Source: Acidilobus saccharovorans 345-15 | Lineage (GTDB): Archaea > Thermoproteota > Thermoprotei_A > Sulfolobales > Acidilobaceae | Assembly (NCBI RefSeq): GCF_000144915.1 | Contig: NC_014374.1 | Span: 62,001 to 126,000, forward strand | Direction of reading: 5' to 3' | DNA length: 64,000 bases | Program-made: the position numbers and the translations under genes | In this document: positions 8,927-57,840 of the stretch, piece by piece | Layout of the letters: every line of letters starts with the position of its first letter | Position numbering within the stretch: position 1 is the stretch's first letter | The notes under the pieces: generated by a model | The model's input: the letters and a program-made list of their open reading frames with translations, nothing else | Told to the model about the DNA's origin: nothing | Database searches by the model: none

Positions 8927-8940
8927 ATCGCTCACCCAAC

Positions 8941-8952
8941 TCGAATATTCGA
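8941..8952. promoter_or_regulatory. 12-bp perfect palindrome at the predicted transcription start (operator candidate)
   Basis: TCGAATATTCGA is a perfect inverted repeat. It sits between the TATA element (8961-8970) and the start codon of the small Gly/Trp-rich gene, over the predicted transcription start, where archaeal repressors usually bind. Confidence 0.5.
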
Positions 8953-8960
8953 TACAAGCC

Positions 8961-8970
8961 TTATAAATCT
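8961..8970 (-). promoter_or_regulatory. TATA box of the small Gly/Trp-rich gene
   Basis: ATTTATAAGG on the minus strand, about 26 nt upstream of a predicted start near 8940. The leader would be about 14 nt and include the GGTGAG ribosome site. Confidence 0.55.
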
Positions 8971-9055
8971 TAATGCTGGCCCCAGCGGTCGCTGGGAAAA
9001 AATAAATAGATCCAATGCGAACTGTAAGCGTGAGCTGTATGCAACTTAAACCAAG

Positions 9056-41323: not shown

Positions 41324-41383
41324 GCTCCCCACTCACCTCAAAGCGATAAGCCCGACAGCTATAAAGCGAGGGCCGCTCGGAAC

Positions 41384-41393
41384 GGATAAAAGC
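41384..41393 (+). promoter_or_regulatory. TATA box of the DRG/Obg-type GTPase gene
   Basis: GGATAAAAGC predicts a transcript start near 41414, leaving a leader of about 13 nt to the proposed ATC start at 41427. It forms a divergent promoter region with the Sir2 TATA at 41359-41366. Confidence 0.5.
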
Positions 41394-41426
41394 ATTTCAA
41401 GGAGCTGAAGACCCTGGGGGCCAGCC

Positions 41427-42581
41427 ATCGTAACCAACCTGCCCGCTGAGGCCATAGCTAAGCTTAACAGGTACAGCGAGGCCAGGACTACGGAGGAGAA
41501 GATCAAAGCCCTTGAGGACTTCCTGAGCTCCGTGCCCAAGCACAAGGGCACCGAGAAGCTGAGGCTGTGGGCAACCAGGAGGCTGGCCGAGCTCAGGGAG
41601 GAGTCCGAGAGGGAGAGGCAGAGGAGGTCGGGCGGCTCAAGGCCCGGCATGTTCGTTGAGAAGGCCGGGGCGGGCCAGGTGGTGCTGCTTGGCCCCCCCA
41701 ACTCTGGCAAGAGCTCCATAGTGGCCAGGCTGACGAACGCCAAGGTGACAGTGAGCCCAATACCTTACACCACGCAGCTCCCGGTGCCGGGCATGATGAC
41801 CTACCTTGACGTAAAGCTGCAGCTTGTCGACACGCCGCCGCTCCTTAACCCGGACGGGAGCGTCAACTCCAGGGTCGTGGCCCTGGCCAGGAACGCCGAC
41901 GTCATAGCCGTCGTCATTGGGCTCGACTCCCCTGAGCCAACCAAGGACCTGACGGCCAGCCTCGAGGCCATCGAGGACAGGGGCATAGCCTACTCCCTGG
42001 AGAAGGGCTTCGTCAAGGTTGAGAGGAGGACCCAGGGAGGGCTTACCTTCATCTATAGGGGCACCCCCAAGTTCACCGAGGAGGAGGCGAGGAGGCTGCT
42101 CAACAGCTACAGGGTCTACAACGCCGTCGTTGAGGTCTACGGCCCCGCCACGCTTGACGACCTTGAGGAGGCCATATTCAGCTTCAAGGTCTACAAGCCC
42201 ACCTTCGTGATATTCAACAAGGCAGACCTACCCGCCTCCGAGTCGAGGGCCAGGGAGGCGGCGAGGCTGCTGCCGAGGGACGTGCCCTGGATACTTGCAT
42301 CTGCCGAGACCGGCGTGGGGCTGAGCAGCGTGGGGCCCGTGGCCTATAGGCTGCTCAACGTGAAGAGGATCTACACCAAGAAGCCTGGCCAGCCGCCCAG
42401 CCCTGAGCCCCTGATAGTTAAGGCTGACGCCACCGTCAGGGAGATAGCTGAGAAGATAAGCCCGTCGCTGGCCACCAGCATGAGGTACGCCAGGATATGG
42501 GGCAAGGGGGCCAAGTACGAGGGCCAGAGGGTGGGGCCCGACTACGTGCCTCAGGACGGCGACATCATAGAGATAAGGTGA
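41427..42581 (+). CDS. DRG/Obg-family GTPase with TGS domain; apparent non-standard start
   Basis: Translation-associated GTPase: G1 LGPPNSGKSSIVARL, switch region PYTTQLPVPGMM, G3 QLVDTPPLL, G4 FNKADLPA and a C-terminal TGS domain (VRPVADATVREIAEKISPSLA-type region ending DIIEIR). The conserved N-terminal helical region (for example ALEDFLSSVPKHKGTEKLR) begins well before the first GTG at 41532. In frame upstream, between the stop at 41406 and that GTG, there is no ATG, GTG or TTG. The best candidate is an ATC at 41427, where family members begin their chain and which fits the promoter. About 384 aa from there. An odd case, so the exact start is uncertain. Confidence 0.82.
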   Translation: MVTNLPAEAIAKLNRYSEARTTEEKIKALEDFLSSVPKHKGTEKLRLWATRRLAELREESERERQRRSGGSRPGMFVEKAGAGQVVLLGPPNSGKSSIVARLTNAKVTVSPIPYTTQLPVPGMMTYLDVKLQLVDTPPLLNPDGSVNSRVVALARNADVIAVVIGLDSPEPTKDLTASLEAIEDRGIAYSLEKGFVKVERRTQGGLTFIYRGTPKFTEEEARRLLNSYRVYNAVVEVYGPATLDDLEEAIFSFKVYKPTFVIFNKADLPASESRAREAARLLPRDVPWILASAETGVGLSSVGPVAYRLLNVKRIYTKKPGQPPSPEPLIVKADATVREIAEKISPSLATSMRYARIWGKGAKYEGQRVGPDYVPQDGDIIEIR

Positions 42582-43466: not shown

Positions 43467-43596
43467 GCTTCCCGCACCCGACTCTACAGGTATATGGCCG
43501 TATATATAACTTTAACGCCGTTAAAGAAAATTAGATGTTATTCTAAAAAGAAAATCATCTAAGTTGGGTACTTTTTATGGGAGGAGAGCTCAATTT

Positions 43597-43606
43597 ACTT
43601 ATATTT
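43597..43606 (+). promoter_or_regulatory. TATA box of the porGDAB operon
   Basis: ACTTATATTT predicts a transcript start near 43627, about 22 nt upstream of the porG ATG. Confidence 0.5.
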
Positions 43607-44537: not shown

Positions 44538-45731
44538 GTGCAGGCACAGGTCCAGTACAAGAGGCCCATACCCCTGAGCACTAACTACGCGGTGGCCCAC
44601 GCGGCCAAGGACTTAGACGTTGACGTCATAGCGGCCTACCCTATAACCCCGCAGACCACGGTGGTCGAGAAGCTCTCAGAGTTCGTCGCCAACGGCGAGC
44701 TTGACGCTGAGTTCATACACGTGGAAAGCGAGCACAGCGCCCTTAGCGCCACCCTGGCCGCCTCGCTGGCGGGCGCGAGGGCCTTCACCGCCACGGCCAG
44801 CCAGGGACTGGCATTCATGCACGAGATGCTTCACGTGGCCTCTGGCCTGAGGGCCCCCATAGTCATGAGCGTAGCCATGAGGGCCCTCAGCGCACCGATA
44901 AGCATATGGAACGACCAGACGGACCTGTTCAACGCGAGGGACGCCGGCTGGATAATCTACTTCGTCCACACTGCCCAGGAGGCCTACGACACCATAATAC
45001 AGGCCTACAGGCTCGCCGAGGACAGGGACGTGCTGCTGCCCGTCATGGTGGGCTATGACGGCTACGTCATGAGCCACACCACAGAGCCCGTGGTGGTCGA
45101 GGACAGGGAGTCCGTGCTCAAGTTCGCGCCCAAGAGGCCCTACCCGTACAGGCTTGACCCGGACCACCCGGTGACCATAGGACCCATAGTGCCGCCTGAG
45201 TACTACTATGAGATAAAGTACCAGCAGGTCAAGGCCATGGAGGGGGTGCCGGAGAAGGCTGAGGAGATAGACAGGGAGTTCGGCAAGACCTTCGGCAGGA
45301 GCTACGGCATCATGGAGTGCTACATGTGCGACGGAGCTGAGGCGCTAATAGTTGCTAACGCCAGCTACGCCGCCACCATGAAGAGCGTGCTGCCGGACGC
45401 CTGGAAGCAGGGACTCAAGGTAGGCCTGCTGAGGCTCAGGCTCTACAGGCCGTTCCCAGTCAAGCACTTCGTCAACTACACGTCCAACGTGAAGAGCGTG
45501 CTTGTAATAGACAGGGCCATAAGCTACGGCGCGCCCTACCAGGGGCCTCTGGCCAACGAGATAGCCGGCCTCAAGGTCAGGGAGGACCTCGGCTTCAACC
45601 TGACCAGCGTCGTGGCAGGCATAGGGCAGAGGGCCATGGAGAACGAGGACTTCTTGGCTATTGCTCGCCTGGCCTGGGAGGCCAGGACGAGGAAGTACCC
45701 TGAGACCATATTCTATGGGGTGAGGGAGTGA
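44538..45731 (+). CDS. porA: 2-oxoacid:ferredoxin oxidoreductase, alpha subunit (PorA)
   Basis: 397 aa, binds part of the CoA/thiamine diphosphate active site with PorB. Segments typical of the alpha subunit: AAYPITPQTTVVEKL, FIHVESEHSALSATLAASLAGARAF (residues about 58-82, including the conserved Glu) and TASQGLAFMHEMLH. GTG start at 44538, one nt after the porD stop, with GGAGGTGA upstream. Stop overlaps the GTG/ATG of porB. Confidence 0.93.
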   Translation: MQAQVQYKRPIPLSTNYAVAHAAKDLDVDVIAAYPITPQTTVVEKLSEFVANGELDAEFIHVESEHSALSATLAASLAGARAFTATASQGLAFMHEMLHVASGLRAPIVMSVAMRALSAPISIWNDQTDLFNARDAGWIIYFVHTAQEAYDTIIQAYRLAEDRDVLLPVMVGYDGYVMSHTTEPVVVEDRESVLKFAPKRPYPYRLDPDHPVTIGPIVPPEYYYEIKYQQVKAMEGVPEKAEEIDREFGKTFGRSYGIMECYMCDGAEALIVANASYAATMKSVLPDAWKQGLKVGLLRLRLYRPFPVKHFVNYTSNVKSVLVIDRAISYGAPYQGPLANEIAGLKVREDLGFNLTSVVAGIGQRAMENEDFLAIARLAWEARTRKYPETIFYGVRE

Positions 45732-46705
45732 TGGCGGAGCAGGCTAAGAAGCTTCCCAGGATAAAGAGCCTGTTCGACCTGCCCAGGGACGAGTACTTCC
45801 TGAGCGGTCACGGCCTCTGCGCAGGGTGCACGGCTGGCACGATAATGAGGATGCTGACCAAGGTGGCGGGCAAGGACGCAATAATAGTGAACGCCACCGG
45901 CTGCGTCGAGGTCTCAACGACCAGGTACCCGTACTCCAACTGGTTGGTGCCGTGGTTCCACTCCGCCTTCGAGAACGCGGGCGCCAGCGCTGGAGGAATA
46001 GCCAGGGCCATCGAGGTGATGAAGAGGAAGGGCATGATACCCAAGGACAAGCAGGTCAAGGTGATAGCGGTCGGCGGCGACGGCGGCACCGTTGACATAG
46101 GCCTGCAGAGCCTGAGCGGCATGCTGGAGAGGAGGGACCCAGTAATGTACGTGCTCTACGACAACGAGGCCTACATGAACACCGGCATACAGAGGAGCGG
46201 CGCGACGCCGTTCCACGCGTGGACTACAACGACGCCTGCAGGCAAGGTGTGGAGGGGCGAGTGGAGGACCAAGAAGGACATAGCTATGATAGTCGCCGCC
46301 CACAGGATACCCTACGTGGCTACTGCCAACCCTGCCTACCCGCAGGACATGATAAACAAGTTCATAAGGGGCCTGGAGGTCCTCGACGAGGGACCGTCGT
46401 TCATACACGTGCTGATGGCATGCACAACAGGCTGGAGGTTCGACCCCGCCCTCGGAATAACCATATCAAGGCTTGCCACTGAAACCGGCGTGTTCCCGCT
46501 CTATGAGATTGACCACGGCAACTTCAGGGTCACGTTCCCGATAGCCAAGAGGAAGCCGGTGTCGGAGTACCTTAAGCTGCAGGGCAGGTTCGCCCACCTG
46601 ACGCCCGCCGAGATAGAGGAGGTACAGAAGCTCGTTGATGAGAGGGTGGCCGAGATAAACAAGCTGGCCGGAAAGGAGGTAATAGGTCCAGTAGTTAAGT
46701 CCTGA
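45731..46705 (+). CDS. porB: 2-oxoacid:ferredoxin oxidoreductase, beta subunit (PorB, TPP-binding)
   Basis: Thiamine-diphosphate-binding subunit of 324 aa. SGHGLCAGCTAG near residue 25 carries the Cys pair of the [4Fe-4S] cluster. GGDGGTVDIGLQSLSG (about residue 117) leads into the Mg/TPP motif that ends with YDNEAYMNTG, so both GDG and N are present. ATG at 45731 follows GGGGTGAGG; a GTG three bases earlier overlaps the porA stop and may serve instead. Last gene of the operon; T-runs at 46727-46750 look like a terminator. Confidence 0.94.
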   Translation: MAEQAKKLPRIKSLFDLPRDEYFLSGHGLCAGCTAGTIMRMLTKVAGKDAIIVNATGCVEVSTTRYPYSNWLVPWFHSAFENAGASAGGIARAIEVMKRKGMIPKDKQVKVIAVGGDGGTVDIGLQSLSGMLERRDPVMYVLYDNEAYMNTGIQRSGATPFHAWTTTTPAGKVWRGEWRTKKDIAMIVAAHRIPYVATANPAYPQDMINKFIRGLEVLDEGPSFIHVLMACTTGWRFDPALGITISRLATETGVFPLYEIDHGNFRVTFPIAKRKPVSEYLKLQGRFAHLTPAEIEEVQKLVDERVAEINKLAGKEVIGPVVKS

Positions 46706-46726
46706 TAGCCTTCAGTTCCCTTTTAA

Positions 46727-46750
46727 CTTACCCGTAACATTGTTTTTGTT
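46727..46750 (+). terminator. T-rich terminator after porGDAB
   Basis: CTTTTAACTT and TTGTTTTTGTTAATT downstream of the porB stop fit a crenarchaeal poly-T terminator. No stable hairpin is needed. Confidence 0.5.
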
Positions 46751-46789: not shown

Positions 46790-46798
46790 CTTAAATAT
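46790..46798 (+). promoter_or_regulatory. TATA box of the candidate structured RNA
   Basis: CTTAAATAT predicts a transcript start at about 46821, which would begin the RNA inside the hairpin region described in the next entry. Confidence 0.45.
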
Positions 46799-46812
46799 CC
46801 TTTCCTGTGGCC

Positions 46813-46900
46813 AAGCCTCAGGCGACCCACCTTTGTGGTGGAGGCTCATAGGCCCGTCATCGGGCCTGGAGGAATCTCAGGCTTAACTTCATGGCTTTTT
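46813..46900 (+). ncRNA. Candidate structured RNA between porB and an APC permease
   Basis: Three stems can be drawn: an outer pair AAGCCT (46813-46818) with AGGCTT (46879-46884), and two inner hairpins, CCACC-TTTGT-GGTGG (46827-46841) and AGGCCCG-TCAT-CGGGCCT (46850-46867). A T-run (46896-46900) follows. A TATA box lies upstream and the downstream permease has its own TATA-like element (46911-46919). This may be an independent small RNA or a leader element of the permease gene. No known riboswitch class was recognised. Confidence 0.42.
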
Positions 46901-46946
46901 GGTAGTGCTCATTATAGTTCCTTTATGAAGCGCGGGGTGAGGCCGC

Positions 46947-48800
46947 TTGGCTGACCGCGGCATTATAGAGGAGGACAGGAAGCTCAGCCGCTCCCTGGGC
47001 CTCTGGCACTACGTGGCAATAAACATAGGCGCAATAATAGGCTCCGGCTGGCTCCTCGCGCCCCTTGGAGCTTCCGCCTTCAACGGGCCCCTCTCGGTGG
47101 CCTCGTGGGTGGTGGCGGCCGCCCTCGTGGCCTTCATGGCAATTGCCTACGCCTACCTGGCCTCGGCGGCGCCAAGGACCGGTGCCGTGGTCAGGTACCC
47201 GCAGATGGCCCACGGGGACCTCGTGGGGTTCTCTACAGGCGCGCTCTACCTGCTCTCAATATCGTCGCTGCTTCCAGCTGAGGCGGTGGCAACGGTCTAC
47301 TACGCAAGCTATTACGTGCCAGGGCTCGTCAAGAGCGCCACGGTGCTCGGGCAGCAGCTGACGGTGCTGACCCCCAAGGGGCTCCTCCTGGCGCTGGCGA
47401 TAGTGATTGTAATCTTCGTCATTAACTACTTCGGGGTTTCGCTCGTGGGCAACGTGAGCCTCGCCCTGATGGTCTGGAAAATAGCGGTCCCCCTGACAGT
47501 GATAGCCGCCCTGCTGGCCCTCGCCTTTAACCCGCACAACTTCGCCCTTGCCGTTAGCACCCAGGCCTCCGGCGAGGGGCTCTCGAGCGCAGCAGCCATA
47601 TTTGCAGCCATACCAGTAACAGGCATAGCTTACGCCCTGCTGGGCTTCAGGCAGGCGGTTGAGTACAGCGGCGAGGGCAGGAAGGCCTCCAGCGACGTCC
47701 CTAAGGCGGTCATACTCTCGGTGGCGTTAACGGCGATCATATTCATACTGCTTCAGGTGGCCTTCATAGGGGGCCTCAGGTGGTCTAGCATAGAGGTTAA
47801 CGAGACCGTCAGGCTCAGCAACGGAACCGTAGTGAGGCGCCTCGAGCCCGTGACCCCGGGCAACTGGAGCGCCCTGGCCGTGTCAAACATAGCCGCGGCC
47901 CCGCTGGCCAGCGAGCTGGCCATTGTGGGCCTCGGGGTGCTCAGCATAGTCATGATAATAGACGCCTGGGTCTCGCCCCTGGGCAACGCAGTAGTGCAGA
48001 TGGGCAACCTGGGCAGGATAGTCTACGGCATGGCAGCCAACGGGCACCTGCCCCGCAGGCTGAGCGGCCTCAACAGGTACGCAGTGCCTGGCCTTGGACT
48101 TATAGTGGCCCTAGCGCTTGGCCTCATCTTCCTTCTGCCCTTCCCAAGCTGGTACGCTATAGGAAGCTACGCCGTGCTCACGACCCTGCTGACCTATGTG
48201 ACTGGAGGGACAGCCCTAGGCGCCTTCACGGCCAGGAGCAGGTCAGTTAAGCTGCTTATGGCGGGCGCGCTGGGCGCCGTAGGGGCCTCGCTGATAGCCT
48301 ACTGGGCCGGCATGATACCCATGATACCGGTGTTCATAACGTTCATATCAGCCCTGGCGGCGTTCATGATAATAAGGGCCTTCTCTTCGCGCACCTCAAT
48401 GTTAGCGGTGGCCCTGCCCTACGCGGCCGCCGTAGCGTTCTCAGACTACATACTTGCGGTCAAGGTGTTCTACCCGCTAAGCTCAGGGATAAGCGTCCCT
48501 GAGCAGGCGGTGGTGCGCTACCTGGCCCTTGCCATGCTGCTCTCCGTGCTTTCCACCGCGGCCGCGCTGGCCGCCGGCTACCTCATTGACAGGGGCCTCA
48601 GGCCCTCAATCAGGGGCGGCGCGTGGTACGTGGGGCTTGTGACGTCAATAATGCTGGTTGACATACTAGGCCCCTACGGCCTCTCCTCGGTGTACGGGGG
48701 CGACCCGCCCATACCGTTCCCCTTCGACCTCGTTGCCGTGGCGGCGGTGACGCTGGTCGCCTACTTCGTCTCAGTGCTGACCGCGCCCAAGGAGTCCTAG
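46947..48800 (+). CDS. APC-superfamily permease, large
   Basis: 617-aa transporter with about 14 membrane segments. The first helix has the APC pattern INIGAIIGSGWLLAPLGASA (about residues 25-44), and VEYSGEGRKASSDVPKAVI (about 235-253) is the conserved pre-helix 7 loop. A Ser/Asn-rich extracellular loop (about 280-310) is likely glycosylated. Substrate is an amino acid or amine by family; unknown here. TTG start; the preceding GGGTGAGG may be its ribosome site. It lies after the candidate structured RNA. Confidence 0.82.
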   Translation: MADRGIIEEDRKLSRSLGLWHYVAINIGAIIGSGWLLAPLGASAFNGPLSVASWVVAAALVAFMAIAYAYLASAAPRTGAVVRYPQMAHGDLVGFSTGALYLLSISSLLPAEAVATVYYASYYVPGLVKSATVLGQQLTVLTPKGLLLALAIVIVIFVINYFGVSLVGNVSLALMVWKIAVPLTVIAALLALAFNPHNFALAVSTQASGEGLSSAAAIFAAIPVTGIAYALLGFRQAVEYSGEGRKASSDVPKAVILSVALTAIIFILLQVAFIGGLRWSSIEVNETVRLSNGTVVRRLEPVTPGNWSALAVSNIAAAPLASELAIVGLGVLSIVMIIDAWVSPLGNAVVQMGNLGRIVYGMAANGHLPRRLSGLNRYAVPGLGLIVALALGLIFLLPFPSWYAIGSYAVLTTLLTYVTGGTALGAFTARSRSVKLLMAGALGAVGASLIAYWAGMIPMIPVFITFISALAAFMIIRAFSSRTSMLAVALPYAAAVAFSDYILAVKVFYPLSSGISVPEQAVVRYLALAMLLSVLSTAAALAAGYLIDRGLRPSIRGGAWYVGLVTSIMLVDILGPYGLSSVYGGDPPIPFPFDLVAVAAVTLVAYFVSVLTAPKES

Positions 48801-48853: not shown

Positions 48854-48959
48854 TGGTGGGCCCGGGGGGATTTGAACCCCCGACCACAGGGACCCGAGTC
48901 GGGCGCCAAGTCCTCGGCATTGGCGTACCCCGCATCCTGCCAGACTGGACTACGGGCCC
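48854..48959 (-). tRNA. tRNA-Pro(CGG) with a 29-nt intron
   Basis: On the minus strand: acceptor GGGCCCG/CGGGCCC, D-arm, T-arm GGGGG-TTCAAAT-CCCCC, discriminator A and encoded CCA. The anticodon arm is interrupted; removing 48898-48926 gives CGGGG-TTCGGGT-CCCTG, anticodon CGG (Pro). Acceptor and loop match archaeal tRNA-Pro. A TATA (about 48982-48993, minus strand) sits 26 nt upstream of a start near 48962. Confidence 0.92.
48898..48926 (-). other. tRNA-Pro intron at position 32/33 (bulge-helix-bulge)
   Basis: The intron starts at the A of GTA and ends at the C of ACT. Exon-intron pairing CGGG/CCCG forms a 4-bp central helix flanked by 3-nt bulges GTA and ACT. CGCCAA/TTGGCG closes the intron hairpin. 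Cleavage between the second and third bulge bases yields the TTCGGGT loop. The site is between positions 32 and 33, not the usual 37/38. Confidence 0.8.
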
Positions 48960-57635: not shown

Positions 57636-57698
57636 GGGCTAGCCCTGCTCCTTAAAAATGACGTGGACTAATAAGTTCTCCTCCTCTGCGAGGACCGC

Positions 57699-57705
57699 AT
57701 ATAAA
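57699..57705 (+). promoter_or_regulatory. TATA box near a candidate small RNA
   Basis: ATATAAA with a predicted transcript start near 57728, exactly before a box C-like sequence. No gene start lies within 100 nt downstream, so it may drive a non-coding RNA. Confidence 0.4.
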
Positions 57706-57726
57706 CGCTGGGGTCACTGGACCGTT

Positions 57727-57778
57727 GGGATGAGGACACCACGGGGCTGAGCTGGGCGATGATGTAACCTGTCTCAGC
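57727..57778 (+). ncRNA. Candidate C/D-box-like small RNA
   Basis: Box C-like ATGAGGA (57730-57736, one mismatch to RTGATGA), 10-nt spacer CACCACGGGG, box D' CTGA (57747-57750), spacer, and box C'-like ATGATGT (57759-57765). The terminal box D is a poor CTCA (57773-57776). The predicted transcript start coincides with the first box. Incomplete boxes make this a weak candidate. Confidence 0.3.
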
Positions 57779-57840
57779 CGACCTCCGAGAAGCTCAACTG
57801 GCTAACAGTTAAAGCCCTCCCAGGGCCTACAGTTTAAAAG

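Follow-up and report, generated by a model that had tools for sequence, protein, structure and literature searches.

The stretch between porB and the gene for an APC amino-acid permease in Acidilobus saccharovorans 345-15 is probably the promoter and 5' leader of the permease mRNA, with a short upstream ORF that would be translated and coupled to the permease, a reading to which we give a probability of about 0.55. Established from the letters themselves are a conserved block, a possible second hairpin, the reading frames and a short overlap between the upstream ORF and the permease. The window, which is the whole 64,000-nucleotide stretch of DNA that was analysed, is part of a single contig of 1,496,453 bases, and the features that concern us are as follows.

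45728-46705, porB, end of the pyruvate:ferredoxin oxidoreductase gene pair, upstream of the studied stretch
46790-46797, + strand, TATA-like box CTTAAATA
46813-46818 with 46879-46884, outer pairing of AAGCCT with AGGCTT
46820-46843, + strand, conserved block with the core GACCCACCTTTGTGG at 46824-46838
46827-46841, + strand, hairpin 1 (CCACC-TTTGT-GGTGG), within the block and surrounding the start codons
46835-46954, + strand, upstream ORF of 39 codons from GTG, stop TGA at 46952-46954
46849-46868, + strand, hairpin 2, inside the upstream ORF, in the same place with different letters in three lineages
46896-46900, T-run
46934-46942, + strand, putative Shine-Dalgarno site GGGGTGAGG of the permease, common to the relative G002
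46947-48800, + strand, APC amino-acid permease of 617 aa with a TTG start (PF13520, PF00324), overlapping the upstream ORF by 8 nt

All the elements that the initial annotation had named within 46790-46900, a TATA box, an outer pairing, two hairpins and a T-run, were located in the sequence. From the features above we infer a transcription start, translation, a restart and possibly regulation. Transcription would begin near 46820 and ribosomes would initiate at the block's GTG, some 15 nt into the RNA, they would then read the upstream ORF through hairpin 2, terminate at the TGA within the 8-nt overlap and restart at the permease TTG, thereby tying permease synthesis to translation of the short ORF. 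The hairpins at the beginning of the short ORF may set the frequency of initiation, and in two relatives (G001 and G003) the ORF would have become fused to the permease. If this is true, 46790-46837 is where the promoter and the first start codon of the permease should be placed; if the leader-ORF reading is wrong the stretch would be an ordinary promoter and leader.

The conserved block

The comparison was made among four genomes of the genus, G000 (the window), G001, G002 and G003, which stand for three independent lineages only, G001 and G003 being counted as one. The core GACCCACCTTTGTGG is unchanged in all four, between porB and the same APC permease, and the block site is always ahead of the orthologous permease. 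A 21-nt pattern of the block, allowing up to 3 mismatches, has one copy in each of the four genomes (with 2 mismatches in G002) and is found in 0 of 56 others, and when the 261-nt region was compared with 40 genomes the sole matches were of 27-28 nt, in G003 and G001. Between lineages 37-47% of the letters agree from the porB stop up to the block and 38-65% from there to the permease; only G001 and G003 have flanks that resemble each other, at 87% upstream of the block and 96% downstream of it. In pairwise comparison the porB fourfold sites agree at 44-51%, and they are the same in all four genomes at 32 of 136. As the core of the block is identical in the four genomes while its flanks and the porB fourfold sites diverge, it is evidently under selection. 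It is not the best-conserved stretch of the window and other upstream regions score higher; in an ungapped-score comparison the rows that outscored it numbered 8 of 24 for G003, 6 of 12 for G002 and 4 of 22 for G001, a few of these rows being a single region scored twice, once from each side, or genes that were probably missed. An earlier background comparison that mixed in false ORFs was not used.

In the genome contig collection the block pattern was found in one record, Acidilobaceae archaeon UBA162, and a search of that collection for the permease gave no match. Among 214 genomes of the order the 15-mer, at 1 mismatch, has matches in 11, of which 4 are the genus; the 7 matches outside it (one exact, in G187) were dismissed as chance because a reversed control pattern gives more, about 27. 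The permease itself shows at most 38% identity outside the genus across 40 relatives, paralogues inside the genus being 33-39% identical, and because the outside permeases are thus no closer than in-genus paralogues the leader comparison was confined to the genus. Among the matches listed from literature naming Acidilobus and related topics, in which subscription journals are mostly uncovered, none was on this locus.

An invariant block is accounted for equally well by a DNA operator at a single site, which is the main rival to the leader reading, albeit a doubtful one. The near-palindrome CCACC-N5-GGTGG at the transcription start would be bound by a regulator of the permease, with the RNA hairpin a by-product. 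It is the sequence including the loop, rather than the pairing, that is conserved, the block lies at the predicted transcription start and hairpin 1 is weak at 80 C, all of which would suit a protein-binding site. However, the inverted repeat is kept in three of the four genomes and is one position off in G002, where one arm has changed without compensation, and a single copy per genome in all four, at up to 3 mismatches of 21, does not make a regulon, although a regulator with a single target remains compatible with it. An operator would also leave hairpin 2 and the frames unexplained.

Several other features of the region were observed in passing. The divergent promoter region of the oxidoreductase operon (43467-43604, with a palindrome at 43510-43526) carries CTTTAACGCCGTTAAAG, which is likely to be an operator and at 1 mismatch is present in all four genomes of the genus, some 3.3 kb before the permease block; G001 has two extra sites and G003 one. 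The divergent intergenic region at 8936-9055 has a stretch, ACTCGAATATTCGATACAAGCCT, that is conserved in G001 and G003 and is possibly an operator. Long ungapped matches to relatives at 41333-41531 and 57636-57840, outside the ORF set used, are probably missed short genes or wrong starts. On the - strand 48857-48959 is probably an intron-containing tRNA gene, with an Rfam tRNA match of 49.4 bits over 103 nt that was unreported by ARAGORN with its bacterial setting. Between G001 and G003, fourfold identity is 0.38-0.43 in the upstream part of porB, 0.68 at the porB end and 0.73-0.87 in the permease, the counts for other pairs being spoiled by indels and left out; because of this jump at the porB-permease junction it looks as if the permease segment may have been exchanged between the two lineages.

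Predicted promoter, upstream ORF and permease frame

The TATA-like box at 46790-46797 has a score of 6.9, reached by 0.075% of window positions, and a box lies ahead of the block in all four genomes, the other scores being 8.3, 7.6 and a weak 2.8 in G002. From the position of the box, and what we take to be the usual spacing, the transcription start is predicted at about 46820. Among 130 upstream regions of these genomes, a set that omits the permease of the window and may include that of the relatives, 44 have a TTTAAA-like motif whose end is 25-33 nt ahead of the start codon, and in 12 this spacing is 34-40 nt. The block GTG lies 34 nt from the motif in the window, and the spacing grows to 36 nt in G001 and G003 and to 39 nt in G002, values at the limit of what is usual. 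From the same motif to the permease TTG it is 146 nt, and this difference counts, together with the invariant block and the open frames, as support for the leader reading.

Two further sites could alter the picture. A stronger TATA-like site at 46720 (score 9.2), with similar sites in G001 and G003, makes a longer transcript possible. The permease had also been thought to have a TATA box of its own, and CATTATAGTTCC at 46910 is a candidate for it, with a score of 5.5 (reached by 0.2% of window positions) and at 25 nt before the TTG, which is a usual distance, but no matching box was found at the same place in the three relatives. An internal promoter at 46910 is therefore possible in the window, without a counterpart in those genomes.

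The block includes TTTGTGGTG, with GTG GTG, and what follows it differs between the lineages. In G002 the upstream ORF is of 48 codons and has the same 8-nt overlap, with ATG in place of TTG, thus overlapping co-directed frames are found in the window and in G002, with fusion taking their place in the other two genomes. In G003 the frame opened by GTG GTG enters the permease without a stop and runs to 634 codons. A G-run of G001 carries an additional base and the GTG frame there stops after 8 codons, so that the permease of G001 must start at the TTG of the block, from which the frame is open for 635 codons. In both of these genomes the permease frame stays open as far as its normal end, and the block has the sole in-frame ATG, GTG or TTG upstream of LSRSLG.

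The distance from the start to the Shine-Dalgarno-like site (G000, G002) or to the permease (G003) is 90, 117 and 114 nt, each divisible by three. In these three genomes only the ORF frame is free of stops, and an open frame arises by shuffling with a chance of 0.25, 0.32 and 0.36. The peptide is not conserved, the predicted products being alike at their ends only, therefore translation itself, not the peptide, would be what matters. This limited likeness is counted against the leader reading, as are the broken GTG frame of G001, the rival sites at 46720 and 46910, the long spacing between motif and GTG, the weakness of hairpin 1 at 80 C, the absence of one or other hairpin from the best folds of G002 and G003 and the small number of independent lineages. 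Pairing of the block with the Shine-Dalgarno-like site of the permease, as a switch, was considered and rejected, as 158 of 500 shuffles were as good.

Hairpins, outer stem and T-run

The fold of 46790-46900 is -40 kcal/mol on the + strand (z -2.2, with 7 of 200 shuffles as good) and -41.2 kcal/mol on the - strand (z -3.3, 1 of 200). Folding was also carried out at 80 C, presumably close to the temperature at which the organism grows. Hairpin 1 in the window goes from -7.3 kcal/mol at 37 C to about 0 at 80 C, and alone at 80 C it ranges from -1.9 to +2.8 kcal/mol across the genomes. The value of +2.8 is that of G002, where one pair is broken without compensation and hairpin 1 is missing from the best fold of the longer leader. 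Covariation cannot test hairpin 1 because its letters hardly vary.

Hairpin 2 can form 7-8 nt downstream of hairpin 1 in all four genomes, its first base being 25-26 nt beyond that of the 15-mer. It has 6 to 8 pairs, keeps -2.1 to -7.1 kcal/mol at 80 C and has no letters common across the genomes. Stems as good were found in 0.7% (G000), 0.6% (G001), 1.0% (G002) and 10.4% (G003) of 1000 shuffles, it is absent from the best fold of G003, and 39 of 1066 tiles of the window carry a stem like it with 6 G-C pairs. Covariation of the stems in relatives had been put forward as a check, and hairpin 2 shows signs of it: seven of its eight pairs form in all four genomes and the eighth in three, with two or three pair types at seven. 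The counting used an alignment made by hand and fixed on the stem, which favours pairing (MAFFT misaligned the hairpin).

The same cannot be said of the outer stem, for which the best pairing between the flanks was equalled or beaten by 644, 547, 1789 and 140 of 2000 shuffles in G000, G001, G002 and G003. The folds of G003 and that of one G001 fragment do have the hairpins closed by an outer stem, but with other arms. At chance level in four genomes, the outer stem and with it the three-way junction that the initial annotation thought near were rejected; the four genomes share no junction sequence except the block and a few bases. That the outer stem would be partly transcribed holds, its 5' arm being upstream of the predicted start. 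Of the proposed self-contained structured unit, the hairpin 1 block and the possible hairpin 2 are kept in all four genomes, whereas the outer stem is at chance level and a counterpart to the T-run, sought in the three relatives, was not found. A scan of the stretch against Rfam (release 15) gave no family match at the gathering score, and at E up to 10 only three matches, all far below the cut-off.

It had also been suggested that the stretch could be a small RNA or a metabolite-sensing leader. A separate small RNA would run from about 46820, or from an upstream start near 46750, to the T-run near 46900, and the strong site at 46720, the possible permease box at 46910 and a fold better than shuffles would all allow for this. 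Yet the T-run and the internal box are missing from the three relatives, the outer stem does no better than shuffles, and in G001 and G003 the region is an open frame joined to the permease, all of which makes such an RNA improbable. A riboswitch for the permease is, if anything, harder still to credit. The position before a transporter and a conserved leader with two hairpins are what one might expect, but there is no Rfam match, no conserved junction beyond hairpin 1 and no covarying closing stem, and the element was found in one genus only. Because the block holds the start codons of a frame that reaches the permease, and the outer stem and T-run fail in the relatives, the idea of a conserved, partly structured permease leader stands, whereas a separate small RNA or an aptamer is unsupported and either is unlikely.

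A more specific form of the leader reading is that of a genus-specific crenarchaeal switch, in which the invariant start hairpin and the covarying, heat-stable hairpin 2 gate a short ORF that reopens the permease start, the ORF having been added to the N-terminus of the transporter in two species, where the start hairpin would now drive the transporter directly. This we hold tentatively, and would sooner bet against it. If true, the locus would be a small case of translational control in a crenarchaeon, with a leader ORF absorbed into the main protein in two relatives.

Comparison with known systems

The arrangement is like that of archaeal and bacterial gene pairs that overlap and are coupled by termination-reinitiation, with co-directed frames and a short overlap, here of 8 nt (PMC10666635; PMC6728339). 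Among 2,661,236 prokaryotic gene pairs, 8 nt ranks third in frequency as an overlap length and falls within the range from which restart is predicted, and gaps of about 20 nt nearly abolish restart (PMC10666635). Those tests were made in Haloferax volcanii and E. coli, outside the group of this organism (PMC10666635). Unlike the known pairs, the upstream frame here is an ORF of 39-48 codons without a conserved peptide, and its coupling is proposed. A small ORF before a transporter is also found in the Mg2+ transporter system of Salmonella, where the ORF affects translation from a structured start region (PMC8092293). Salmonella belongs to another domain of life, and the likeness drawn here is one of arrangement.
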